This document shows, in pieces, positions 3,230 to 26,793 of a stretch of DNA of 26,816 nt. Position numbers and translations under genes: made by a program. The DNA is from a virus. The notes beneath the pieces are model-generated. The model had not been told where the DNA came from. It saw nothing but the letters and a program-made list of their open reading frames with translations, and searched no databases. Each line of letters opens with the position of its first letter. Positions within the stretch are counted from its first letter, which is position 1. The stretch lies in IMG/VR virus record IMGVR_UViG_3300031952_000114, positions 1-26,816 of that record; one strand, 5' to 3'.

Positions 3230-3613
3230 CTAGTGCGGTTTTTCTTCTGGTTCAAAAGACCGGAATGCGGCATTGAATCGCCCAATAAAATCTGGGTCAT
3301 CACATAGATCGAGATTGTCGAGGACTGGGTCCTCCATAGTAGCTTCCGGGTATTCCTGCTTAATCCATTTGGAGAAGCTGCCGGCGGTGCCGACAATGTC
3401 CACTATAAGTTCATTGGTAGAGTTGCCATTGCCTCCATACCGATACAGCATGCCCAGGGGCTCCCAGTATGTGGATGCGAGGTAGACGGCGGTATCGAGC
3501 AGGCACTCGTACCACATTTCGAAAAGGGCCTCCTCGCCTTCGGTATGGATCGGCAGGGCTTCTGCTGCAGGGTCAACGATGTGCGCTTTCAGCTGTTCTA
3601 GAGTCTGGATCAT
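3230..3613 (-). CDS. Unknown acidic protein, 127 aa
   Basis: The ATG at 3613 has AAGGA about 8 nt upstream. The protein is acidic and helical (TEGEEALFEMWYECLLDTAVYL), with a Gly/Asn turn region (YRYGGNGNSTNEL) in the middle and an acidic C-terminus (FRSFEPEEKPH). There is no membrane segment or recognisable catalytic motif. Acidic small early proteins of phages sometimes mimic DNA or inhibit host enzymes, but that is only a general possibility. It is followed by a possible promoter for the next gene. Confidence 0.6.
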   Translation of the reverse strand: MIQTLEQLKAHIVDPAAEALPIHTEGEEALFEMWYECLLDTAVYLASTYWEPLGMLYRYGGNGNSTNELIVDIVGTAGSFSKWIKQEYPEATMEDPVLDNLDLCDDPDFIGRFNAAFRSFEPEEKPH

Positions 3614-3637
3614 GCAGTATTCCTTATATGGGTTAGC

Positions 3638-4009
3638 TCATTGTGAGCTGGTATCTATCTTTTTCTTGTTCGCCTGACGGTAGGCTTTCTGGTAGGCAAC
3701 CATTTTCTCTCGGTTCGCCTGACGGTAGGCTTTCTTTTCGGCAGCTATCTTTTCCTTGTTCGCCTCGTTGTAGGCTTTCTTTTCGGCAGCTATCCTCTCC
3801 TTGTTCGCCTCGTTGTAGGCTCTGTTCGCAGCGGCTATCTTTTCCTTGTTCGTTTCACGGTAGGCTTTACGCTGGGTAGCTCTCTTTTCCTTGTTCGCCT
3901 CGCCCCAGGCTTTCATGTAGGCTGCTATCTCTACCTTGTCCGCCTCGCTGTAGGTTCTACGCTGGGCAGGTCTCTTCCTCTTAACTGCGCTCTCTTTTTC
4001 TGCATTCAC
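3638..4009 (-). CDS. Lys/Ala-rich protein of seven 15-residue repeats
   Basis: I place the start at the GTG of VNAEKESAVKRK, because GGAGG lies 7 nt upstream and a promoter-like element lies further up. An ATG 66 nt upstream would pass through that element. After a basic leader, the protein consists of about seven tandem 15-residue units of the type AYNEANKEKIAAEKK, predicted to form one long charged helix. The same repeats appear in the DNA as 45-bp units. Similar repeats occur in phage proteins next to HNH endonuclease domains. No HNH motif follows here, so the nuclease part is absent or was never present. Function unknown; nucleic-acid binding is plausible. Confidence 0.6.
   Translation of the reverse strand: MNAEKESAVKRKRPAQRRTYSEADKVEIAAYMKAWGEANKEKRATQRKAYRETNKEKIAAANRAYNEANKERIAAEKKAYNEANKEKIAAEKKAYRQANREKMVAYQKAYRQANKKKIDTSSQ
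3650..3960. repeat. Tandem 45-bp repeats within the Lys/Ala-rich gene
   Basis: About seven imperfect 45-bp units encode the 15-residue helix repeats. On the + strand they show as recurring GTAGGCTTTCTTTTCGGCAG-type blocks. The two central units are nearly identical, which suggests recent duplication. Confidence 0.8.
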
Positions 4010-11799: not shown

Positions 11800-13800
11800 T
11801 TGGATAAGCGACTCTTATACGCAGGCAAATCAGAAAAAGGGGTGTTCACGCATCTGATAGATGCGGAGCGTTCGTATCTTGAAAAGACTGCAGCACAATA
11901 CCATCCGACGATCGCCTCCTATATCAATTCAGCGAAACCGATCAAGGGTAAGACCCAAATCCTGCTCACGGCGCTCGGCGCTGGCGAGTGGTGGGGCGAT
12001 AATGCCAACGCGGATTACTTTGCCGAATCTGAACTGGCTCATGCCGGTCCCGACTATGGCTACCAGACATTCGAGCAGTGGGCCAGAGTCTATAAGCACC
12101 ATATAAACAAAGATCCGAACAATTCATACGGCACTGTGCCGCTCTCGATTTATAATCCGGAGTTCCATCGCTGCGAGCTGATCATCCATCTCGACAACCA
12201 CAAGGCCCCGGACATCCAGGCGCGTATCGAGAACGGCGACTACCCAGACTGGTCGATGGGCACCAAAATCCCCTACGATATCTGCAACATATGCGGAAAC
12301 AAGGCCCCCTCCAGGAAACAATACTGCGAGCACGCAAAGTACTATCTCGGACAAATCCACCCTGCGACGCAGAAGAAGGTTTTCCTCTACAACATCAAGC
12401 CACGCTTCTTCGATATCTCCTACGTGCTCCTCGGCGCGGACAGGATAGCAAAGACACTGCTAAAGGTAGCCCACGCCCGGCCGTCATACTACGGCATGAG
12501 TTCTGCGGCCTTGGCCGAGAAGCTCGCTGAGCGTGCGAAACAAGCAACTATCGAGAAACAGATTCCGGCCAATGACGCTGCGCCGCCAGGAAGCCAGGAG
12601 ATGCTTCACAATGCCAGAGCACTTCTCGAGGCTATTCCAGAGGTTAAGGCCAGAGAAAAGGTGCTGCCAAGAGAGACTCTCGACGAGCTCGCCGAGATGC
12701 CCCTACACAGTTCACTCTCCACAATGGCTATGCTGGGTATCGCTCCAAAGCCGCAGGAATTTCAAAGACTGTTCCTGATCTCCAAGGGCCTTCGTCAACT
12801 CGCCGATGCCTTGGACGCCAGGAACGCCTGCTTTGACCCGATGATGGCCGGAGATAGTCCGGATATGGGTGCGGTCGATATTGACGGAAAGCACGTGAAC
12901 GAGAGAGCGGTATCGCTCTTAAGCCCGCATATGGAAGGCAGGAGCTACGCGGCTCCTTTCCTTGGTCGACGCATTCTTCTGATGATCAAAAGCGGGGCAC
13001 AGGAGCAGCCTTTGCCAGTCTTCATCAAGGGCGCGGAAGATACTGGTGACAGAAAACCCATAGGGATTTTACCTGTGATGATTGCTGCTGCCGGCGCTTA
13101 TGCTGCCTTCTCTAGAAAAGCCCCCGCGGGAAGTCTTCAGGGCATAGATAAGCTGCTACAATCAAATGCGGGGCTTGGTCTTGCGACTGCACTCGGCATT
13201 GGACTTTTGAGTGTGTTTCATCATACCTTTGGACCTAAGATCAAAGGCCAGCTACACATGAACGCGCAGGAGAATCCTGACGCCAACGATATCTTTGCTC
13301 GTATCGAAGAGAGAAAGCAAAAGCCGTATCTTAAGCTCGGAGGGTCTTCCAACCTCGGGGCCGCTGCGAAACGGCTTTTCTTAGGTATTCCTGTAGCTTA
13401 TATGGCTTCAGGTGTTTTGCAAAAGCATAGAGACATAAACCCCTCCGAGCAGGAAGGCCAGGCGAAAAGTTTTCTCCGGCAAAACCCTGATCTTGTGAGC
13501 GGTGGTCTCATCGCGGATGCAATGCTGTCTGCCCGTGGAGGCGGCACGCACAAGATGCTGAAGAACCTCGGAAGGCAGTTCGCAAAAGCTGCCGAGGCTG
13601 CCGACGAGATCTTGAGCACCGACTTTTCGAAGACAGCGGACGCCCAGGATTTTCTTGCATCAGCCGTGACGTGGCCTTTGGCCATAGGCAATGCAAATCT
13701 TCCGGGGAGAATCGCAGGGGGGCTTTTTGATCAAGCGATGATTGAAGCTACGCATAAGTTCATGAAGTCGCGGCAGAAGAAGTCCCAGAGTCCCACTTGA
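11800..13800 (+). CDS. Putative head maturation protease with long C-terminal extension, 666 aa
   Basis: It would cleave scaffold and capsid proteins during head maturation. The TTG start has GAGG about 8 nt upstream, and no other start exists before residue 150. Residues 50-215 resemble phage prohead proteases of the herpesvirus-protease fold: LLTALGAGEWWGDNANAD, a YKHHINKD segment (H100/H101 as candidate catalytic His), HRCELIIHLD, and DYPDWSMGTKIPYD with S152 as candidate nucleophile. A CxxC...CxH cluster follows at once (C162, C165, C176, H178). K-x-A matches occur at LEKTA (27-31), LLKVA and FSKTA near the C-terminus. The last 400 residues include two hydrophobic stretches (near 430 and 465) and are of unknown role. 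It lies directly upstream of scaffold-like genes, as expected for a protease. Confidence 0.65.
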   Translation: MDKRLLYAGKSEKGVFTHLIDAERSYLEKTAAQYHPTIASYINSAKPIKGKTQILLTALGAGEWWGDNANADYFAESELAHAGPDYGYQTFEQWARVYKHHINKDPNNSYGTVPLSIYNPEFHRCELIIHLDNHKAPDIQARIENGDYPDWSMGTKIPYDICNICGNKAPSRKQYCEHAKYYLGQIHPATQKKVFLYNIKPRFFDISYVLLGADRIAKTLLKVAHARPSYYGMSSAALAEKLAERAKQATIEKQIPANDAAPPGSQEMLHNARALLEAIPEVKAREKVLPRETLDELAEMPLHSSLSTMAMLGIAPKPQEFQRLFLISKGLRQLADALDARNACFDPMMAGDSPDMGAVDIDGKHVNERAVSLLSPHMEGRSYAAPFLGRRILLMIKSGAQEQPLPVFIKGAEDTGDRKPIGILPVMIAAAGAYAAFSRKAPAGSLQGIDKLLQSNAGLGLATALGIGLLSVFHHTFGPKIKGQLHMNAQENPDANDIFARIEERKQKPYLKLGGSSNLGAAAKRLFLGIPVAYMASGVLQKHRDINPSEQEGQAKSFLRQNPDLVSGGLIADAMLSARGGGTHKMLKNLGRQFAKAAEAADEILSTDFSKTADAQDFLASAVTWPLAIGNANLPGRIAGGLFDQAMIEATHKFMKSRQKKSQSPT

Positions 13801-13834
13801 GTCATTGTTTCTAGAATAAACACCGGAGGATTGT

Positions 13835-14467
13835 ATGGCTACGTTACAAGAATTGCTCGAATCAGATTTCGGCGCATCCCAGACAAAAACCGCATCTGCT
13901 GGCAGAAGGCAGAACGATGACGAGATCGAAAAGCTCGCTGCAGAGCTGAATCTCGGGGACCTCTTCGGCAAGTCCGCCATGGACAAAGAAGAGGAAGAGG
14001 AAGAGGAAGAAAAAGAAGAGAAGAAGGCCGGCTTCCACGGGGGTCTGCCAGATCTCTACAACACTCTTTTCCCTTCGGATGGGGATTTGACCATCAAGAC
14101 TGCAGAGCAGGAAAAAAATGCCGCTGAGGAAAACCTCGGCTCTCGTGCATATGACTATTTCGGCGCCCAGTGGGACCGTCGTATCGAGAAGCTGGCTTCC
14201 GACGTCTTGACAGGCGGGGCCACCATCTCCTCTTCGACAGCTGCTGGCCATGACGGTGCGGTTCAGGAAGATTCCACCCCTCCACAGACTCAGGCCGACA
14301 ATAAGCCTGCAGGTGCCGGTTCTGGAATCAACACCAAAAGCACTGTGGTGACTAACAATGTCAAAGCGGAAAATGACGACGAGAGCGTCGGGCATTACGA
14401 GCAAAAGTCGGCAGCTATGAATCTTGCTATGCGCAAAGCATTCTTGATCTCGCAGCTCGAAGGCTGA
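13835..14467 (+). CDS. Acidic scaffold/core-like protein, 210 aa
   Basis: The ATG has GGAGG 6-7 nt upstream. The protein has a very acidic run near residues 50-65 (an almost pure Glu stretch) and low-complexity Ser/Thr/Asn in the C-terminal half. It holds at least six K-x-A sites: QTKTASAG, EIEKLAAEL, FGKSAMD, TIKTAEQ, RIEKLASDV and EQKSAAMN. Composition, position between protease and capsid genes, and density of possible cleavage sites fit a prohead core or scaffolding protein that is chopped up during maturation. The segment DDEIEKLAAEL is closely matched in the 137-aa protein two genes downstream, so they may share ancestry. Confidence 0.55.
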   Translation: MATLQELLESDFGASQTKTASAGRRQNDDEIEKLAAELNLGDLFGKSAMDKEEEEEEEEKEEKKAGFHGGLPDLYNTLFPSDGDLTIKTAEQEKNAAEENLGSRAYDYFGAQWDRRIEKLASDVLTGGATISSSTAAGHDGAVQEDSTPPQTQADNKPAGAGSGINTKSTVVTNNVKAENDDESVGHYEQKSAAMNLAMRKAFLISQLEG

Positions 14468-14516
14468 GTCTTTGAACGGGCAGTAGTCTAATTACAAATC
14501 AACAGGAGTAAATGAT

Positions 14517-15236
14517 ATGCGTTTTGAAGATTTAAGCGCCGCGGACCAAAAGCTCTTAAACACGGATTTTGGCGGCCTTGAGAAGGTAGCTGCGGATCAA
14601 GTTGCGCAGGCTCAGGAAATGTACGAGATCGGCTTTTCCAAGCTCGCGTCTCAAATTGCCGATCAGCTCGACGCTGAGGCAGCCGCTGAGAAGGTGGCAG
14701 AGGACAACACTCTGGATCCAGAGTCTGAGAAACTTGCCGCATCACTCGGCGCCTTTATCGAGCGCGGACAGTTCGATGGCCTCCGCAAGCTCGGCAGCGA
14801 TCGGCATGGCAATGAGTGGCACTATCTTCTTCCCTTCGTAGAAGAAAAAGTGGCTGCAGCAGGCGGGATGGCTGCCGTCACAAACTTCGGCAAAAAGCTC
14901 AAAGGCTACGCTGGGGCAGCTGGTAGTAAGACTAAAGAGTGGGCTGGGGCAGCTGGTAGTAAGACTAAAGAGTACGCTGGGAAAGCTGGTGATAAGGCGA
15001 AGGAAGTGGGCGGCAAGGTCAAAGACTACCACAAAAGTATGGCCGACGATGCACGCGGGGCGGCTACTGGCCGTAATGCGTTCATGGACCACACGGGCGT
15101 AAAGGGCAATCTGAACGCAGGGCAACGCGCCGGTGCTGGTGGCCGGGCTGCATTGAAGGCATCGCCATACCTCGCAGCTGGAGCTGGAGCCGGTTTGGCA
15201 GCAGCTATGCGCAAAAAAGAAGAACCAGCAAGTTGA
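14517..15236 (+). CDS. Scaffold/core-like protein with LEA-like repeats, 239 aa
   Basis: The ATG at 14517 has AGGAG about 10 nt upstream. An ATG 5 nt earlier is in a frame that closes quickly. Residues 1-115 are acidic and helical with K-x-A sites (GLEKVAADQ, GFSKLASQI, SEKLAASL, EEKVAAAG). Residues 131-174 hold four 11-residue repeats of the type YAGAAGSKTKE, which resemble LEA-type amphipathic helices. The C-terminus is Gly/Ala-rich with a weakly hydrophobic stretch (YLAAGAGAGLAAAM) and a charged end. It is probably an internal head or core protein. No firm family match. Confidence 0.55.
   Translation: MRFEDLSAADQKLLNTDFGGLEKVAADQVAQAQEMYEIGFSKLASQIADQLDAEAAAEKVAEDNTLDPESEKLAASLGAFIERGQFDGLRKLGSDRHGNEWHYLLPFVEEKVAAAGGMAAVTNFGKKLKGYAGAAGSKTKEWAGAAGSKTKEYAGKAGDKAKEVGGKVKDYHKSMADDARGAATGRNAFMDHTGVKGNLNAGQRAGAGGRAALKASPYLAAGAGAGLAAAMRKKEEPAS
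14907..15005. repeat. Three 33-bp tandem repeats in the LEA-like gene
   Basis: Units at 14907-14939, 14940-14972 and 14973-15005 encode 11 residues each. The first two are almost identical in DNA, and the third has drifted. A fourth, much weaker unit may follow. Confidence 0.85.
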
Positions 15237-15249
15237 GTTTGTAATGCTT

Positions 15250-15276
15250 CCGGGGGCATGTGCCCCCGGCTTTCTT
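15250..15276 (+). terminator. GC-rich hairpin, weak terminator candidate
   Basis: CCGGGGGC (15250-15257) pairs with GCCCCCGG (15262-15269) around ATGT, followed by CTTTCTT. It lies between two scaffold-like genes. The T tract is interrupted, so partial termination or mRNA protection is likely. Confidence 0.5.
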
Positions 15277-15292
15277 CAAGGAGCAGGGGCGT

Positions 15293-15706
15293 ATGCGGTC
15301 GATAAACGATATGATTCGTGATGCCGATGAGATCTTCGAGAAGAGGGCCTCAAAGCAGGAAAACACCAAGAGCACTAAATCTAGTGGCTATTCGGACGAT
15401 GAGATCTTCAAGCTCGCCGAGGAGCTAAAGAGCCCGTCCAGGACCAGCGCAGCTCGTGAGAAACTTGCCGAGCATGATGGGGAGACCAAGATTGCGTTTA
15501 CCCTGCGAGAGCAGATAGCGCACTCTGCGGCAATCATTGACACGCTTTTGAACCTGGAGCAGCTGGAAAAGTTTGCTGCGCTTGAGAGTGCAGCCAAAGA
15601 AAAAGGCTTCAGCGACGCGCAGATCCAGAGCTTTTTCGAGAAGAATGCTTCGACTGCTGGGTTTCGCTCAATCCTTTCGGAAATACCAGCTCTATTCGGA
15701 AAGTGA
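15293..15706 (+). CDS. Scaffold/core-like protein, 137 aa
   Basis: I choose the ATG at 15293 because AAGGAG lies 9 nt upstream. An upstream in-frame start would fall inside the GC-rich hairpin. The protein is charged and helical. It contains five K-x-A matches: IFEKRASKQ, EIFKLAEEL, REKLAEHD, QLEKFAALE and FFEKNASTA. The block SDDEIFKLAEEL parallels DDEIEKLAAEL in the 210-aa protein upstream. The last 25 bases and those after the stop form the left copy of a 37-bp direct repeat. A head-core role is inferred from composition and position. Confidence 0.55.
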   Translation: MRSINDMIRDADEIFEKRASKQENTKSTKSSGYSDDEIFKLAEELKSPSRTSAAREKLAEHDGETKIAFTLREQIAHSAAIIDTLLNLEQLEKFAALESAAKEKGFSDAQIQSFFEKNASTAGFRSILSEIPALFGK

Positions 15707-15726
15707 GTGAATGATCGTGCAAAACC
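15690..15726 (+). repeat. Left copy of a 37-bp direct repeat flanking the kinase-like gene
   Basis: It matches 16549-16585 at 34 of 37 positions in the same orientation. It covers the end of the 137-aa gene and the start region that belongs, in the right copy, to the 303-aa gene. This is the pattern left by insertion or unequal recombination. Confidence 0.85.
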
Positions 15727-15793
15727 ACCCAGTCCCCACCTTGATGCGCTGTGCGCCATTCGGGGTAGGTACCAGAGAGAGGGGGAAGTGATG

Positions 15794-16573
15794 ATGAACG
15801 ACTCATTCTGGGTTGGGTTTTTTAAGCACGCTTCGCCCAGGTGGATTAAAGAAATCCGAAAACTTAAACAAGTCCCTGAGGCTATGTCCGATAAGCTCAA
15901 AAGTTTGGGCCTTCCCCTGCGCGAAACTCGCCATATCGGCAGAGGGGGGAGTCAACTAGCAGATGAGGTGTTCCATCCAGTTCACGGGGTCTCTATTCGC
16001 AAAATACCTGTTGGGCACAACGCTGCAGACCGCGAAATACTAAAGGCAAGCGCGCGTGACAATATTGCTATGTGGGAGCATGCGCGTCACGCTACGGGGG
16101 GCAAGGGCCCGTTTGCTCACATTAAAGGCCATGAAGGACATGTGGCTTTTTATGAAAAGGCCATGCCATCTGCGAAAGACCGCGGTCCGCGGTTACGCCG
16201 TCTTATCCCCAAGGCTCTCGCTCTTGCGGAAACGCACAGCGCCATCCCAGGGCACAGTCGTCAAGAATGGCGCGCTTTGGATCTGTCTGTAAAACTGAAA
16301 AAAAAGAGCCGGGAAGAGGTTTCATTTAGCGGCAGAGACCAGGAGTACATAGATAAAATCAAAGAGAAGTATCCAGAGCTCCACGATTTGCGACACGGTA
16401 ATATCGTTGGTGGTAAAATAGTTGACATGGAGCCGGGTGGTAATCTTCGTATCCGACTCCACAGGCCTGATAATTATAAAAATCCTGTCAGCGAAGCTAA
16501 AAAGTACTTCGCTGCGGAGACGAGAGCAGCCCAAAAACAAAGGTCCGACTCTATTCGGAAAGTGAGCGAATGA
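15794..16573 (+). CDS. Kinase-like protein with FWVGF N-terminal tag, 259 aa
   Basis: I place the start at the second of two adjacent ATGs (GGGGGAAG about 6 nt upstream). The longer frame from 15707 begins in the repeat and has no ribosome-binding site. Residues 1-13 are the tag MNDSFWVGFFKHA. The rest resembles a small protein-kinase or aminoglycoside-kinase fold: a Gly-rich loop GRGGSQLADEVF (49-60), a candidate ATP lysine K70 in VSIRKIP, a hinge-like VAFYEKAM, and a catalytic-loop-like HDLRHGNIV with D198 and N203 at the usual five-residue spacing, then D211 in KIVDMEP. The C-lobe ends about 48 residues later, which is short. It lies between 37-bp direct repeats. Kinase activity is an inference. 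Confidence 0.5.
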   Translation: MNDSFWVGFFKHASPRWIKEIRKLKQVPEAMSDKLKSLGLPLRETRHIGRGGSQLADEVFHPVHGVSIRKIPVGHNAADREILKASARDNIAMWEHARHATGGKGPFAHIKGHEGHVAFYEKAMPSAKDRGPRLRRLIPKALALAETHSAIPGHSRQEWRALDLSVKLKKKSREEVSFSGRDQEYIDKIKEKYPELHDLRHGNIVGGKIVDMEPGGNLRIRLHRPDNYKNPVSEAKKYFAAETRAAQKQRSDSIRKVSE

Positions 16574-16585
16574 CTGTGCAAAACC
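16549..16585 (+). repeat. Right copy of the 37-bp direct repeat
   Basis: It differs from 15690-15726 at three positions. It encodes the last residues of the kinase-like protein and the first codons of the 303-aa protein, whose ATG at 16570 lies within it. Confidence 0.85.
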
Positions 16586-17481
16586 TCCTGATAGGTGATC
16601 AGCAGAAGCTGGCGTTTCTTAGTGGCTTTATGAGAAAACTCGTAAGCAAGGGAAAGCCGCTTCAAAAAATCGTCAAGGGGTCAGGGAAAGTCAGGAAGAT
16701 GGCTCCTGCAAGAGGGGGCAAACGCGTTTCAAAAAGCAACGCTGTGCCTGCTGGCTTTGCCGAGGGCACTAAATCCCCCAATGCACAGCGAGCTTGGGAC
16801 GCCTATCGCGAAAAGGCTATGACCTCAGGTGGTGGGGCCGACTCACTGCTTCTTTACCCTGCGCAGTTTGCTGCCGAAAAAATGTTGGGTAAAGAGCGGG
16901 TACGTAATAGAATGTGGAAAGCTGTTGGGGCGCCAGCGCTAAGAGCCGACACTGCTGTCGGGAGAGTCCTGGAAAAGACGCCGCTCGTAGGGAAGAAACT
17001 TTTTCGCGTGAAAGAGATGGTTCCTTGGGGCAAAGGACTTCATCGTGAGGTAGAGCGCTCTTCGGCTTTGGGGCCTCTCACGAAGGCTAGAGATATTGCT
17101 GCGCCCATCATTGTCGGCGCAGGTTTAGAGAAAGGCGTCAGGGCAATGACCAAGAAAAAAGATTCCGAGGATGGCCAGCACATAAGAGAAAAAGCCGCTT
17201 CAGTAATGCTTCATCTCCATCAGGAGAACAGGGGGCATGAGAAGCGTGCAGATGCCCTACGCCTTCTCTACAAGCAAGTAGAGCTAGGATACGGACAGCT
17301 GCCGCAATCTTTCGGCGAGCTAAATGAGAAATTAGCTTCGCTAGTAAAAGAGGATTTAGGTGTGTTGGAGAAGGCATTGGAATTAGCTGGGGGCAACCTA
17401 AAGTTTGGCGAGTTGGGATCGAAAGATAACTCCATAGCCGGGACCCCTGCAGAAAAATTCCAAGCCGACCTCCTGGACTGA
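16570..17481 (+). CDS. Basic head/core-like protein, 303 aa
   Basis: The ATG overlaps the previous stop (ATGA). The protein is strongly basic in its first 60 residues. It begins with a degenerate version of the tag (KLAFLSGFMRKLV), and further K-x-A matches occur at IREKAASV, GHEKRADAL and NEKLASLV. A weak hydrophobic patch (DIAAPIIVGAGLEKGV) lies near residue 185. The C-terminus is acidic. The gene would directly follow the 137-aa gene if the kinase-like insert were removed. The basic N-terminus suggests DNA contact inside the head. No family recognised. Confidence 0.55.
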   Translation: MTVQNLLIGDQQKLAFLSGFMRKLVSKGKPLQKIVKGSGKVRKMAPARGGKRVSKSNAVPAGFAEGTKSPNAQRAWDAYREKAMTSGGGADSLLLYPAQFAAEKMLGKERVRNRMWKAVGAPALRADTAVGRVLEKTPLVGKKLFRVKEMVPWGKGLHREVERSSALGPLTKARDIAAPIIVGAGLEKGVRAMTKKKDSEDGQHIREKAASVMLHLHQENRGHEKRADALRLLYKQVELGYGQLPQSFGELNEKLASLVKEDLGVLEKALELAGGNLKFGELGSKDNSIAGTPAEKFQADLLD

Positions 17482-17511
17482 TCGAAAACAACTTTTTTTG
17501 GAGGGGCAGAG

Positions 17512-18003
17512 ATGGTCGTCGCTATCTCGGACAGCAGAATCGTTCCCATCACTGAGGACTTGACCACAGAAGTGTCAACCCTAGAAATCTTGCGTGGTCT
17601 TGAGACCATGTACCGCGTGGACAAGCCCTTGGCTGTCCCCGGAACCACCGCACTTCTTATGGGTGAGTTTGCGGTACTGAATTCGGCCGGTAAGGCGGAG
17701 CGCGCAGGCGCTACACCTGTGGGCCAGACCTACCTTGTCTTTGCAGGTACCGATCGCTTTGATGTCAAGGCAACCGGACAAGTGACCCTCGTTATGAGTT
17801 GGCCAATCCAGGCGAAGACCACACGCTACAACACCGGCGGATCTTACGCGGTTGGGGATCTCCTCACCGTTAAGAACCTTGGTGGTGGTCAATCGCAGCT
17901 TACACCAGCGGCAACAACCGAATTCGCGGTTGCACGCGTGCTGGAAGTTGGAACAGGTTATCTCGTGTACGAGACTCTAGGCGGCGGCTCTACAGAGCTA
18001 TAA
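17512..18003 (+). CDS. Putative capsid decoration/accessory protein, 163 aa
   Basis: The ATG follows TTGGAGGGGC. The product is almost all beta-type, Gly/Thr/Val-rich, without cysteines (for example TDRFDVKATGQVTLVMSW and GGSYAVGDLLTVKNLGGG). The second half looks like a small beta-barrel. A small beta-rich protein directly upstream of the major capsid gene, with 55 nt between them, is a common arrangement for head decoration or stabilisation proteins. The assignment rests on this context and composition. It lacks the K-x-A motif, which suits a protein added to the outside after maturation. Confidence 0.55.
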   Translation: MVVAISDSRIVPITEDLTTEVSTLEILRGLETMYRVDKPLAVPGTTALLMGEFAVLNSAGKAERAGATPVGQTYLVFAGTDRFDVKATGQVTLVMSWPIQAKTTRYNTGGSYAVGDLLTVKNLGGGQSQLTPAATTEFAVARVLEVGTGYLVYETLGGGSTEL

Positions 18004-18058
18004 CCCCTGACCGAAGTCGCACTTGTTTGAAACACTTTTGAACATCAAGGAGATTTAG

Positions 18059-18970
18059 ATGTACGAAGGATTGGATAGCCAGACGTTTAACAATCTCTTC
18101 ATTGAGAGATTGGACACCGTCGAAGGGCTACAAAAAACAGCCGCTGCCGGCGCAGCATTTGTTCGATCAAAGATTCGTGAGATCGGTTTCGGGCGTCGCA
18201 TTCTGCCGCCAGAATCCGTATCCCGCGCAGATCTAACTCGCTCGACCGATCATGACACTCTGATCAAGATCGTCGATATCGAGCATGAGTCCAAGGCTAT
18301 GGCGGTCAACTTCGCTTCAACAGCGAACGAGCGCTATATCCAAGGCAAGCGTTATGCGCTGCCGTTCTTCAAGATCGAGTCCGAGAAATTCGTCAAGTCT
18401 GAAGGCGAACTCTTGGCCTATGATTACCCAATCACGAAAGTGATTGAGGAGAACTCAGTCAAGGACATTCAAAAAGTCGAAGATATCAAGTTCATCGAAT
18501 ATGCAGAAGCTGCGATCACGATCACAGGCAAGCGTATTATCTCTGCATCTACTTCGGTAGACCGCAAAGAGATGAACAGTCTCTTCAAGATGATCGACTT
18601 CGATCAGCTGACTGTTGGTTGCACGCTCATGAACACCGTCGACTATGACGATTACATGATCCAGCCTGCAACTGAAATCGGCTCGCCCTTGGCGTCGGAA
18701 ATCACTGTTGATGGCTACAAGTATCAGACGATTCTGAATCGTCGCCTTGTTGTCACCAACAAGCACGATATCCTGCTCCCTGGCGAAATCTGGGCTTTCA
18801 CTGAGCCAGCCTATCTCGGTAACTTCTTTATCCTGAATGACGTCAAGTTCTGGATCAAGAAAGAAGCCGATTTGGTTGTTTGGAAGACCTGGGAATATAT
18901 TGCCGAAGGCTTCGGTAATATCAAGTCGATCGCTAAGATCGAACTCGATGTTCCAAACCCAATTCCGTAA
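18059..18970 (+). CDS. Major capsid protein (HK97 fold)
   Basis: It forms the shell of the head. A strong AAGGAG lies about 7 nt upstream of the ATG, the best ribosome-binding site in the window, as expected for the most abundant protein. At 303 aa, the layout fits phage major capsid proteins: a helical N-arm, a long-loop region rich in charged residues (AVNFASTANERYIQGKRYALP), a spine helix region (ITKVIEENSVKDIQKVEDIKF), and a C-terminal A-domain-like part ending in strands (KHDILLPGEIWAFTEP...NDVKFWIKKEADLVVWKTW). GLQKTAAAG at residues 23-31 is a likely processing site; cleavage after A28 would remove a short delta-like segment. A hairpin follows the gene. Confidence 0.85.
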   Translation: MYEGLDSQTFNNLFIERLDTVEGLQKTAAAGAAFVRSKIREIGFGRRILPPESVSRADLTRSTDHDTLIKIVDIEHESKAMAVNFASTANERYIQGKRYALPFFKIESEKFVKSEGELLAYDYPITKVIEENSVKDIQKVEDIKFIEYAEAAITITGKRIISASTSVDRKEMNSLFKMIDFDQLTVGCTLMNTVDYDDYMIQPATEIGSPLASEITVDGYKYQTILNRRLVVTNKHDILLPGEIWAFTEPAYLGNFFILNDVKFWIKKEADLVVWKTWEYIAEGFGNIKSIAKIELDVPNPIP

Positions 18971-18977
18971 GTTTTTG

Positions 18978-19017
18978 GGGCGAGCTATCGTTCGGCAACG
19001 GCCGGTAGCTCGCCCTT
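18978..19017 (+). terminator. Hairpin after the major capsid gene
   Basis: GGGCGAGCTA (18978-18987) pairs with TAGCTCGCCC (19006-19015), ten perfect pairs, with only two Ts after it. It may protect or partly terminate the capsid mRNA. Confidence 0.55.
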
Positions 19018-19035
19018 CAATTGTGAGGAAGTTTT

Positions 19036-19581
19036 ATGAAGACAGAGGATCAGCCGCTTGAACTTTATCGGGTGACCAATATCACCGCCCGAGCTCCCCG
19101 CATTGATCCGGGCACTCAATTAGATCTTCGCACTGCCGCCGAGGCCAAAGGCCATGCGATCTCTTTTCGCGGTGCAAGAGGCGGCGCAATCCTGTTAGCA
19201 CCAGGCGAAAGCCAGGTCACTAATGATATTACCGGCAGCCTGAGGAAGCTGGAACAAAGACTTCTCGTGTCGATCGTAAACCTGGACATAAACGCAGAAG
19301 CACCGCCGGCACCTGCAGCTCCAGTTGTGGCAGCTTTGCCTGTCGAGGTCGCCCCTCCGGTTGTAGCAGCTGTGCCCGAGAAGGTCAGCCCTCCTGTGGT
19401 AGCTAAGCCTCCGGTAAAAGCCCCCGTAGCATTGCCAAAAACGGGCAGCGGGCCGGCACCAGTTGTAAAGAAAGCACCGGCAGCTCCTGCAGTCGCAGTT
19501 TCCGCAGCTCCCGTACCAGAAGCGACTACGCCAGCAGCTCCTGAAGTTGCGGTCGATAACAGCAACGACGAGATCATCTAG
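19036..19581 (+). CDS. Virion-associated paralogue 1 with Pro/Ala-rich tail, 181 aa
   Basis: The ATG has GAGGAAG upstream. Residues 8-82 form a compact domain: YRVTNITARAPRIDPGTQLD, then LRTAAEAKGHAISFRG and a helix before LLVSIVNLD. The same pattern recurs in the next gene. Residues 90-175 are a Pro/Ala/Val-rich stalk with repeated APVVA-type units, likely extended. The end is acidic. The location directly after the major capsid gene suggests a head-surface or head-tail interface protein, with the stalk pointing outward. No named family recognised. Confidence 0.6.
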   Translation: MKTEDQPLELYRVTNITARAPRIDPGTQLDLRTAAEAKGHAISFRGARGGAILLAPGESQVTNDITGSLRKLEQRLLVSIVNLDINAEAPPAPAAPVVAALPVEVAPPVVAAVPEKVSPPVVAKPPVKAPVALPKTGSGPAPVVKKAPAAPAVAVSAAPVPEATTPAAPEVAVDNSNDEII

Positions 19582-19635
19582 TTCGTGCGGACTTTGTATC
19601 GAGCGCCGTACGCCAGTTTCCCAATAGGAGTCCCT

Positions 19636-20181
19636 ATGCAAAAGCAGCAGCCGCAGCAGCAGTTCCAGTACAAGTTAACGAATACGACGGTTAAACCCCC
19701 CAAGCGCGATCCAAAAACCGGCGTCGATCTTCGCACGATGCTAGAGAAGGTCGGGCATGTTGTTTCCTTTCGAGGGAGAAACAACGAGTCCGTGATGGTT
19801 GGGCAGAACAAGTCCCACATCCTCTACGAGCTGACTGAAGGCATTATCGGCCTTCAGCGCGGTGGGCATGTGAGCGTCGAGAGAATCGACGATGTCATGA
19901 CGCTGCTGGCTCAACACACCAACAAGCCTGCAGCTCGGGCAACCGCACCGCAAGCAGCCGTTGCGGATAACCCAATGGCTAAGGAACCCGATTCGAGTGA
20001 GGCTTCTGACTACGCGGAAATACCAAGCTCTGAGCGAATGGCGAGCGCCATCGAGATGGGGCTGGACGATCACAAGCAAAAGGGCGGAAGCGAGTACGAG
20101 GGGGCCACCAATCCAGATGGTGAGCCTAATTTTCTCGTAACTGCCAGTAAAAAAATATCCCGTAAGGCTCGTCAAAGATAA
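19636..20181 (+). CDS. Virion-associated paralogue 2, 181 aa
   Basis: I choose the ATG at 19636 (AGGAG 5 nt upstream). An upstream GTG in frame has no ribosome-binding site. After a Gln-rich leader (MQKQQPQQQFQY), residues 12-85 repeat the domain of the previous gene: KLTNTTVKPPKRDPKTGVDL, then LRTMLEKVGHVVSFRG and a last strand GGHVSVERIDD. The C-terminal half differs: it is polar and charged rather than Pro/Ala-rich, ending in a basic KKISRKARQR. A duplicated gene that has specialised is likely. A role on the head or neck is inferred from its position. Confidence 0.6.
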   Translation: MQKQQPQQQFQYKLTNTTVKPPKRDPKTGVDLRTMLEKVGHVVSFRGRNNESVMVGQNKSHILYELTEGIIGLQRGGHVSVERIDDVMTLLAQHTNKPAARATAPQAAVADNPMAKEPDSSEASDYAEIPSSERMASAIEMGLDDHKQKGGSEYEGATNPDGEPNFLVTASKKISRKARQR

Positions 20182-20190
20182 GAGGCTACT

Positions 20191-20664
20191 ATGCCGACGT
20201 ACCAACAAGATTGGGTCACTGGGCGTCAAGAGAAGGCGAAGCGTTATCTTCGCCTTTTTTTGCGTGATACGCCGGAGCTTAACCGCTTGATCCGCAAAGA
20301 AGAGTCCGACGACGAGATGCTTCTCTTCTGCTTGGAGATGACGATCTCTGACTGGAACAGCACCACGCCCTTGATAAGGCAGGTGGATATCGGGAACTAT
20401 CCCAGTCTCTACCTGCTCATGCATGGCTCCGTGATCCAGGTAATGAAGTCCCAGGGGATATTTCAGTCGCGTAACGAGCTCAATTACTCGGCAGGCGGGT
20501 CGAGCTTTATCCGTGCGAATAAGACGAACTACTACATGGCCTGGATGACCAATTTCGTAAACGACTACGAAGTCAAGAAGCGAAACATGAAAATGCAACT
20601 CAATATCGCTGGTGGTTGGGGTGGGGTCAATTCTGAATACGATAGGATAGGCTATGCTTGGTAA
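20191..20664 (+). CDS. Putative neck/head-tail connector protein, 157 aa
   Basis: The ATG has AGAGG about 7 nt upstream. The protein is helical at the N-terminus (basic and Leu-rich, RYLRLFLRDTPELNRLIRKE) and mixed later (ISDWNSTTPLIRQVDIGNYP). It ends with an aromatic/Gly-rich tail. Its position after the capsid-associated genes, and a size usual for adaptor proteins, point to head completion or head-tail joining. An intrinsic-terminator structure lies inside the frame at codons 15-24. The next gene overlaps its end by 11 nt. No sequence family recognised. Confidence 0.5.
   Translation: MPTYQQDWVTGRQEKAKRYLRLFLRDTPELNRLIRKEESDDEMLLFCLEMTISDWNSTTPLIRQVDIGNYPSLYLLMHGSVIQVMKSQGIFQSRNELNYSAGGSSFIRANKTNYYMAWMTNFVNDYEVKKRNMKMQLNIAGGWGGVNSEYDRIGYAW
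20233..20261 (+). terminator. Intrinsic terminator structure inside a coding region
   Basis: AAGGCGAAG (20233-20241) pairs perfectly with CTTCGCCTT (20248-20256) around a six-base loop, and Ts run to 20261. It meets all standard criteria but lies 40 nt inside the 157-aa gene. Confidence 0.65.
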
Positions 20665-20830
20665 GTTCTGGGAGGGCTTCTTCAAAAAAGCAGAGGAAGC
20701 AGATATCAGAAAGCTAGAGGCTCAGGGCAATGCGCCGATGCTCGCCCGAACCATCAGCAAAGCCGGACCAAGAGCAGACGACCTTACCGCTGAGAGTGAC
20801 CGCGCTAAATTCGAGGTAGCCAGAGGGTAA
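20654..20830 (+). CDS. Short protein with FW-GF tag, 58 aa
   Basis: The ATG lies inside the end of the previous gene, overlapping by 11 nt, with AGGAT/AGG-rich sequence just upstream. It begins MLGKFWEGFFKKAEEAD, a version of the FWVGF tag with its K-x-A end. The remaining 40 residues are charged, without hydrophobic core or cysteines, and probably disordered (EAQGNAPMLARTISKAGPRA). It seems to be little more than a tag and a tail. A peptide incorporated into the virion or used as an assembly aid is possible. Confidence 0.6.
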   Translation: MLGKFWEGFFKKAEEADIRKLEAQGNAPMLARTISKAGPRADDLTAESDRAKFEVARG

Positions 20831-20832
20831 TC

Positions 20833-21240
20833 GTGATTGATATAGGCATAACAACTGAAGAATTCATCGAAGCGTTTCGTCAGGCCTGCGAGGATATGGT
20901 ACAGAAGGTGATCGAGAAGAACTCGGACTACACGGGTGACTCGGCAAACCCTTTCGAGACCTTCGAGGCTTGCGAGGCTCTTCGTATTTGTTCTGCCGAG
21001 ACGGGCCTTCTTACCCGGATCGTAGAAAAAGTAAAACGGGTAGACGGGCTGCTAAAAAAAGGCTCTCGTCTTGTGCACGACGAGCCCATTCAGGAGACCT
21101 GCCTCGACATCGCCAACCAAGCCATAATCCTGCTTATCCGGCAGAATTTCGTCGCACGACTTGCCGCTATAGCCCCCATCGACGGTAGTAAGTTTGTTCT
21201 TTCCGATATGCCCCCACCAATCAACTTCAAAGGGCAGTGA
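20833..21240 (+). CDS. DUF1599-like (MazG-like) nucleotide-modification-associated protein, 135 aa
   Basis: The GTG start (GAGGGT upstream) follows the previous stop by 2 nt. The pattern fits the DUF1599 family of small helical proteins: KNSDYTGDSANPFETF (29-44), AETGLLTRIVEKVKRVDGLL (about 56-75), then VHDEPIQETCLDIANQAIIL with the acidic residues that in related all-alpha nucleotide-binding folds hold a metal ion. A role in nucleotide turnover or base modification would be expected from the family. Its place between neck genes is odd, as such genes usually lie with replication genes. Expressed late, it may be packaged or act on the nucleotide pool. Confidence 0.6.
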   Translation: MIDIGITTEEFIEAFRQACEDMVQKVIEKNSDYTGDSANPFETFEACEALRICSAETGLLTRIVEKVKRVDGLLKKGSRLVHDEPIQETCLDIANQAIILLIRQNFVARLAAIAPIDGSKFVLSDMPPPINFKGQ

Positions 21241-21243
21241 CAT

Positions 21244-22110
21244 ATGGCCGGAGTGCTAAGAAGAATCCAGTTCGAGAGTATTGCTGTGACCATACTGTCG
21301 ACCGGGCAGATACCTCGCATTCTCATCAAATGGAAGCTGGAGCCAACCTCGCAAAAGCTATCCAACCTCAAATTCTTTGTGGATCGCGGGGAGAGCCCTA
21401 CGGAGATGCACCAGCTCAACGCGTCACCAATTGCTGCCAAAGGCCTGGATGAATACGTCGACCATACGGCAAACGTAACGGACCTCGATAAGATTTACTA
21501 CTTCCGTGTCCGTGCGGTGGAGTTCCAGGGCGCAACGCCGGTTCAGACATTTACCTCCCCAAGCACGACCTGGGATGGCGACCTGGATTTGGTGGGGCTC
21601 TACATCGTTGAGGAACACCTCTTTGCGCACCGCTGGGTCTACGGTGTGCCGGTCATGATTTACAAGAAGCGTCGCGATGGGGTCTATTGCCCAGAGTGCT
21701 GGGATGATGTTCTGCAGCGTGTGGCTAAAAGCAATTGCCGGACCTGTTACGGCACTGGGCGCCTTGATGGTTTCTACGCCCCAATCGAAGCGTGGATGAG
21801 CCTTGAACCCGATCCAAAGATGGAGCAGGTCGTCGACTGGGGAAAGCGGCAGCAGGGGCAGACGGACATCCAGTTCACCAACTACCCTTTGCTGTCGGTA
21901 GATGACCTCATTGTGGAGCTCAAACCGAATAAATTCTGGAAGGTCTCCATTGTGAGGGCTCCTGAGAAAAACAGGACTGTAATACTTCAGCTCTGTAGGC
22001 TCGATGCGGTAAACCCATCGGACGTCGAATACAAGATCCCTGTGCCTGATGACAGGCGCCGCATTTTGCTCGAAGAGTCAGATCAGCGAGAGAAGGAAAG
22101 GGAATTTTGA
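21244..22110 (+). CDS. Virion protein with fibronectin-III-like domain and zinc knuckle, 288 aa
   Basis: The ATG is 3 nt after the previous stop. Residues 10-100 look like a fibronectin type III fold (SIAVTILSTGQIPRILIKW, then DKIYYFRVRAVEFQGATPVQ). Residues 145-180 hold two CxxC pairs, YCPECWDD and NCRTCYGTG, typical of a zinc ribbon. The C-terminal part is beta-rich (SVDDLIVELKPNKFWKVSIV), followed by a charged helix. It precedes tagged and connector genes on the way to the tail sheath, so a neck or tail-completion role is likely. Domain calls are from pattern only; the precise family is unknown. Confidence 0.55.
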   Translation: MAGVLRRIQFESIAVTILSTGQIPRILIKWKLEPTSQKLSNLKFFVDRGESPTEMHQLNASPIAAKGLDEYVDHTANVTDLDKIYYFRVRAVEFQGATPVQTFTSPSTTWDGDLDLVGLYIVEEHLFAHRWVYGVPVMIYKKRRDGVYCPECWDDVLQRVAKSNCRTCYGTGRLDGFYAPIEAWMSLEPDPKMEQVVDWGKRQQGQTDIQFTNYPLLSVDDLIVELKPNKFWKVSIVRAPEKNRTVILQLCRLDAVNPSDVEYKIPVPDDRRRILLEESDQREKEREF

Positions 22111-22403
22111 TGCATGCATTTTGGGTTGGATTCGAAAAGCGTGCCGGAAGCCTGCTGGGGGCGATGCCTGGTATAACCTCAGGGCTTCGCACCACAAAGT
22201 CGTTTGGCAAGATCCGGTCTGCACAGCCTAAGTCGGGGATATCCATCGGCGCTCGGTCTTTGGCCAGCCCCATTCCGGGACCGCCCACAGCGAGTGCGGT
22301 AAAGGCCGGGATTCCTGGGGCAACCGCGTCCTCCGTAGGGCGTAATGGCATACCTAAGCCGCCTATGCAGTACGGGGCAGGCCTGCAAGGGAGCTACATA
22401 TGA
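22110..22403 (+). CDS. Short Gly/Pro-rich protein with FWVGF tag, 97 aa
   Basis: The ATG overlaps the previous stop by 1 nt (TGATG), with AAAGGGA upstream. It starts MHAFWVGFEKRAGSLLG, the clearest copy of the tag with a K-x-A end. The body is Gly/Pro/Ser/Ala-rich and probably disordered (SLASPIPGPPTASAVKAG), with no predicted domain. Its stop overlaps the next ATG. A cleavable targeting leader on a disordered cargo or spacer is the simplest reading, but the role is unknown. Confidence 0.6.
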   Translation: MHAFWVGFEKRAGSLLGAMPGITSGLRTTKSFGKIRSAQPKSGISIGARSLASPIPGPPTASAVKAGIPGATASSVGRNGIPKPPMQYGAGLQGSYI

Positions 22404-26592: not shown

Positions 26593-26793
26593 ATGGTTTC
26601 TGATTCGTTTTGGGTAGGATTTGAGAAAAGAGCTGTATGGGGGTCAAGTAAGGAGAAGATGGAGGGTGACAAGCCAAAAACATCCACCAAAGTCCCTTCG
26701 ATACTAGCTCCAGTTTACGCACTCCACGCCGCCCTAAAAAATATTTCGCTATTGGATCAACATGGCGAACACAGTAAACATAAAAAGGACTAG
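26593..26793 (+). CDS. Short protein with FWVGF tag, 66 aa
   Basis: The ATG has AGAGG about 7 nt upstream. It begins MVSDSFWVGFEKRAVWG, a full copy of the tag. After a charged linker (SKEKMEGDKPKTSTK), a hydrophobic helix follows (SILAPVYALHAALKNISLL), and a His/Lys-rich end completes it. It is not a typical tail assembly chaperone, which would be expected near this point. The gene lies after the terminator and is followed within 3 nt by another tagged frame, so the two may be a pair of cargo genes. Confidence 0.6.
   Translation: MVSDSFWVGFEKRAVWGSSKEKMEGDKPKTSTKVPSILAPVYALHAALKNISLLDQHGEHSKHKKD

Follow-up and report, generated by a model that had tools for sequence, protein, structure and literature searches.

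The locus

The window, meaning the whole stretch of DNA that was analysed, is the entire 26.8-kb record of an uncultured virus. Its capsid protein shares about 33% identity with the capsid proteins of Salmonella phage Arash and of three Vibrio phages (180-187 kb), and IMG/VR contigs of its relatives reach 182 kb, so the window is read as a fragment, very probably, of a much larger phage genome. The landmark genes are these:

11800 to 13800, plus strand: head maturation protease-like gene (phrog_18299, E 2e-9)
15293 to 15706, plus strand: gene A, 137 aa, in the capsid-assembly region; 67% identical in the relative L034 and present in many relatives
15794 to 16573, plus strand: tagged kinase-like gene, 259 aa, with an ATG also at 15791 (open reading frame, family alignments, profile match)
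16570 to 17481, plus strand: gene B, 303 aa; 77% identical in L034, with the C-terminal half nearly identical
18059 to 18970, plus strand: major capsid protein (phrog_2522, E 5e-12)

The kinase-like gene, the subject of this analysis, starts at 15791 or 15794 downstream of a G-rich stretch resembling a ribosome-binding site, and its stop at 16573 overlaps the ATG of gene B. Past the capsid gene, two adjoining genes (19036-19581 and 19585-20181) are 34% alike over part of their length and are probably an old duplication. Elsewhere in the window, at 3610-3982 on the minus strand, 45-bp tandem repeats code for YNEANKEKIAAEKKA-type protein repeats.

Direct repeats and the empty site

The kinase-like gene is enclosed by two direct repeats:

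15690 to 15729, plus strand: repeat copy 1, at the end of gene A, the former A/B junction (single-copy in L034)
16549 to 16588, plus strand: repeat copy 2, at the end of the kinase-like gene and the start of gene B (repeat comparison)

The first-pass annotation reported two 37-bp copies, 34 positions identical and 859 bp apart, around one gene. They were found as claimed, spaced 859 bp from start to start, and the match extends to 36 of 40 positions. The repeat unit is the junction of the two flanking genes: gene A ends within copy 1, gene B starts within copy 2, and the last eight or so codons of the kinase-like gene are repeat sequence in another reading frame. A hand estimate puts the chance expectation at about 1e-9 pairs of such quality in 27 kb, and a repeat scan of the whole window gave no comparable pair besides two tandem arrays and one weak 26-bp pair. 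A second contig, L002, supports the assembly: it carries both the gene and the repeats and differs from the window at 2 of 9188 bases over 12139-21326 (99.978% identity).

The empty site is present in L034 (IMGVR_UViG_3300037498_000108), the closest relative with the A/B region, where about 20 bp separate the stop of gene A from the start of gene B and the junction is present once. This is the arrangement that had been expected of close relatives, and in about 30 relatives holding gene B no homologue of the kinase-like gene lies between A and B. On parsimony, the gain of the gene is real. The first-pass annotation also called the gain recent, and that part is not supported: the repeats differ at 3 of 37 positions and the third positions of the capsid gene, window against L034, at 31 of 303, so that divergence between the repeats roughly equals that at synonymous sites between the two phages.

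The surroundings of the gene complicate its history further:

14900 to 17050, no strand: divergent block holding the kinase-like gene, between flanks with 93-95% DNA identity to L034

Within about 14.9-17.05 kb, the identity of the window to L034 and L170 falls sharply from about 94% to 55-75%, a stretch that takes in gene A together with the end of a 239-aa gene and the first half of gene B. On the left, the block ends within an array of 33-bp tandem repeats (14901-14999), which lies in the 239-aa gene and codes for AGAAGSKTKE-type protein repeats. Because the block around the gene is itself divergent over some 2 kb, the comparison does not show a gene cleanly inserted into surroundings that are otherwise identical. 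Judging from the sequence, the block is probably an exchange with a divergent relative, and fast local evolution may be an alternative source of its divergence. An outgroup comparison gave no direction for the exchange, that is, whether the window or L034 received the block, and the gain may have occurred in the donor.

The same repeats can be read the other way round, with the gene ancestral at the A/B junction and lost in the relatives by recombination between the repeats. L034 looks exactly like the product of such recombination; the closeness of repeat divergence to third-position divergence from L034, and the outgroups' silence on direction, would also suit a loss. However, no relative with genes A and B has the gene at this place, and the nearest homologues lie at other sites, and we consider the loss improbable. 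The preferred reading is a gain, in which the gene would have entered the lineage at the A/B junction and duplicated 37-40 bp of it, and in which, compared with the closest phage, its neighbourhood would have been swapped for a divergent allele.

A family of kinase-like proteins

Two stretches of the protein carry the residues of interest:

15923 to 16006, plus strand: glycine-rich loop to beta-3 lysine, ETRHIGRGGSQLADEVFHPVHGVSIRKI, with K70; G49, G51, V59, HP, HG, R69 and K70 are invariant
16376 to 16435, plus strand: catalytic-loop-like and magnesium-binding-loop-like stretch, ELHDLRHGNIVGGKIVDMEP, with D198, N203 and D211; D198, N203, K208 and D211 are invariant

Searches of Pfam, PHROGs and NCBIfam with the window protein returned nothing meaningful, and PADLOC returned nothing for it (a weak AbiEi match in L052 lies outside the kinase core). 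The protein does belong to an unnamed family, of which eight members were found: those of the window, L045/L046, L052, L071, L074, L076, L077 and L101. The homologue in L045/L046, 31-35% identical, lies elsewhere, some 4 kb beyond the capsid gene. The L052 member came from a profile search and lies in a 182-kb relative, while those of L071, L074, L076, L077 and L101 were reached with DNA patterns for HPxHGxxxRK and belong to phages of 150-197 kb; the first four of these, the ones checked, have the same capsid family. No homologue was found among cultured phages, Arash included, one weak faecal-phage match for L101 (E 0.1) aside, and none of the 13 matches from a codon-pattern search of bacterial genomes is a real homologue. 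Membership of the window protein is supported by a profile from five other members, made without the window's subgroup, for which the window's gene was the sole match among 377 six-frame open reading frames (E 2.3e-7). In window numbering, G49, G51, V59, H61-P62, H64-G65, R69-K70, D198, N203, K208 and D211 are invariant in all eight members. The residues that the first-pass annotation had named from one sequence (a Gly-rich loop, K70, D198-N203 and D211) are thus exactly those that the family keeps.

The likeness to protein kinases is clearest in L101. Its sequence alone matches the StkP kinase with E 1.5e-4; its match to Pfam Pkinase, covering only 4-142 of 263, is below the cut-off (E 0.0079). 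Against bacterial kinases, a profile of the five shorter members reaches P 1e-10 and a profile of all eight members P 1.3e-6, with 30 column shuffles reaching at most Prob 1.0. D198, N203 and D211 align with the HRDIKPxN motif and the DFG/DLG aspartate of these kinases, with kinase spacing. The predicted structure of L101 (pLDDT 87.3, pTM 0.77) has only kinases as its top PDB matches; the match to VIA has Z 14.3 over 139 residues with rmsd 2.7, its alignment ending near residue 190. The part that matches is the N-lobe and hinge, from the glycine loop to just past the magnesium aspartate. Taken together, the family very likely has a kinase-like fold. Two other assignments were tried and rejected: aminoglycoside phosphotransferase (PF01636), the APH fold that had been put forward as an alternative, gave profile Prob 0.1 and 0.7 and no Pfam match, and Kinase-PolyVal (PF18762) matched none of the 8 records at E<=10, with profile Prob 2.5 and 6.6.

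The kinase fold foreseen by the first-pass annotation held for L101; the AlphaFold2 model of the window protein itself is poor (pLDDT 43 with the first alignment). A profile of the window/L046/L076 subgroup alone has no significant match to kinases (Prob 1.9). This subgroup has extra inserts. The window protein is tied to the kinases by way of its family, most strongly between the tag and the beta-3 lysine. Given the insignificant subgroup profile and the failed model, the window protein is described here as a divergent member of a kinase-like family and not as a demonstrated kinase.

Whether such a protein would transfer phosphate is a separate matter. In the alignment as read by eye, the column of the alpha-C glutamate holds a lysine in the five shorter members, which makes activity uncertain; in the window, an insert makes the corresponding position ambiguous. 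The family has no HRD histidine, and the C-lobe (APE motif, helices F to I) is missing: the window protein has 48 residues after D211, and the matches of L101 end near residue 190. These features would suit a pseudokinase or nucleotide-binding module that serves as a binding or scaffold domain without phosphotransfer. Against it, the lysine, the catalytic aspartate, the asparagine and the magnesium aspartate are invariant across very divergent members, which is unusual for a dead enzyme, and the kinases of polyvalent proteins also lack the C-terminal subdomain yet keep the active site (PMC5512222). We regard a dead enzyme as unlikely and lean slightly towards an active phosphotransferase.

The genes around the family in other phages seem to fit a role in conflict or takeover. 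In L074 (2997-4511) and L077 (8955-10403), the kinase-like domain is fused to a 2H phosphoesterase (PF13563, E 1.5e-14; the profile of anti-CBASS Acb1 matches below the cut-off, E 1.6e-5). The L101 gene is preceded by an open reading frame (L172:6378-7154) with a tag-like FLSELEKIA N-terminus, which may be ADP-ribosyltransferase-like (its Pfam match is weak). The L071 gene adjoins a 2656-aa fused RNA polymerase. This polymerase (L071:2852-10822) is a fusion of beta and beta-prime with intein-like and LAGLIDADG-like matches.

An N-terminal tag shared by unrelated proteins

The kinase-like protein begins with a short peptide that recurs in the window, as found by motif search:

15806 to 15832, plus strand: N-terminal tag FWVGFFKHA of the kinase-like protein
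20654 to 20827, plus strand: small open reading frame with the tag FWEGFFKKA
22107 to 22403, plus strand: small open reading frame with the tag FWVGFEKRA, after a 288-aa gene
26593 to 26793, plus strand: small open reading frame with the tag FWVGFEKRA

The FWVGF tag of the first-pass annotation proved to be a real, lineage-wide N-terminal peptide. Across the lineage, 98 of 105 distinct matches to F-(W)-x-G-F-(E)-K-x-A lie within six codons of a start codon, against a background of 21%. The codons of the tag vary, so it is the peptide and not the DNA that is conserved. The closest relative has 7 tagged open reading frames in 80 kb, against 0.3 in shuffles, and these genes cluster within and beside its structural module. 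Dozens of non-homologous proteins carry the tag, many of them very small and glycine-rich. By Pfam, the tagged enzymes include SNF2-type helicases and one NUDIX, with a weak DNA-ligase-like case; within the kinase-like family, the members of the window, L046 and L052 are tagged. The capsid protein has an N-terminal QKTAAAG, kept as (x)KTAxxG in most relatives, and as a guess its K-T-A and the K-x-A end of the tag could be a shared protease site.

That one tag is common to many unrelated phage proteins suggests that the kinase-like protein is loaded in the particle and delivered to the host. On this analysis, loading of the tagged protein in the virion is possible, at a little under an even chance. 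It is rather unlikely, and still to be weighed, that the protein is made during infection and not packaged, its tag serving assembly, localisation or a structural complex, and that it acts late on targets of the phage or the host. In its favour, the family gene and the capsid gene are far apart in several relatives, the many small glycine-rich tagged proteins are possibly minor structural proteins, and the annotated structural proteins of Arash show no significant enrichment in a relaxed tag-like motif (p 0.16). What speaks against this reading is the clustering of tagged genes in and next to the structural module of the closest relative, the resemblance of the capsid's K-T-A motif to the end of the tag, and the presence of an SNF2 helicase and a NUDIX among the tagged enzymes.

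Proposed role

In the preferred account, the protein encoded by the window gene would belong, as a divergent member, to a phage family of minimal protein-kinase-like domains, laid out as an N-terminal tag and helix, an ATP-binding lobe, a catalytic loop and a magnesium aspartate, with no standard C-lobe. The FWVGFxKxA tag would most likely route the protein into the forming capsid, as the capsid targeting sequence does in T4, and the enzyme would be ejected with the DNA; in the early phase of infection it could then, by ATP-dependent transfer, phosphorylate a target of the host (or of the phage). For this account as a whole, from a mini-kinase gained at the junction to a packaged and ejected enzyme that acts early, we see the balance as about even. 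A wider proposal is more tentative: that the lineage uses one N-terminal peptide to load exchangeable enzymes (mini-kinase, helicase, NUDIX, possibly a ligase), which are gained and lost at junctions of the structural module, and that a phosphotransferase so enters the host with the DNA.

Should the tag prove to be a loading signal, a simple rule at sequence level would list what a large phage lineage may carry in its particles, and with it candidates for first-minute effectors and for counter-defence factors. The family would contribute a kinase core of its own, lacking the C-lobe and distinct from those of the polyvalent proteins.

Comparison with known systems

A packaged and injected kinase was put forward in the first-pass annotation as a new kind of phage effector, which is too strong. 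Iyer et al. 2017 predicted kinase domains on injected polyvalent proteins, to modify host proteins (PMC5512222), and T4 injects tagged internal proteins (PMC3012670). With injection already predicted for polyvalent kinases lacking the C-lobe (PMC5512222), the concept of an injected phage kinase has a precedent. The kinase-like family and the tag themselves appear new, and the literature searches made turned up no stand-alone phage kinase that is injected, though this does not prove that none exists.

Kinase-PolyVal (PF18762) is likewise a phage-encoded kinase core that keeps its active site and has lost the C-terminal lobe. It is part of a giant multidomain protein, in company with further effector domains (2H phosphoesterases and ARTs, for example), whereas the protein here is small and tagged and has no match to its HMM. 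The PASTA-type Ser/Thr kinases (StkP, PknB, Stk1) are the nearest in sequence and fold: StkP is the best sequence match of L101, these kinases are among its best fold matches, and L101 runs in register with them from the glycine loop to the magnesium aspartate. Unlike them, the family has no C-lobe, activation segment, transmembrane part or PASTA part. As to Acb1 and other 2H phosphoesterases, two relatives have a 2H phosphoesterase fused to the kinase-like domain, and the window gene has no such domain. T7 gp0.7 is made after infection and, to our knowledge, is not packaged. As a phage kinase, it acts on proteins of the host (cited in PMC5512222).

The closest parallel for the tag is the conserved capsid targeting sequence by which T4 loads very diverse internal proteins (PMC3012670). 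Both are short conserved N-terminal peptides on diverse unrelated proteins. The peptides differ, and for the tag here packaging and protease cleavage are putative.
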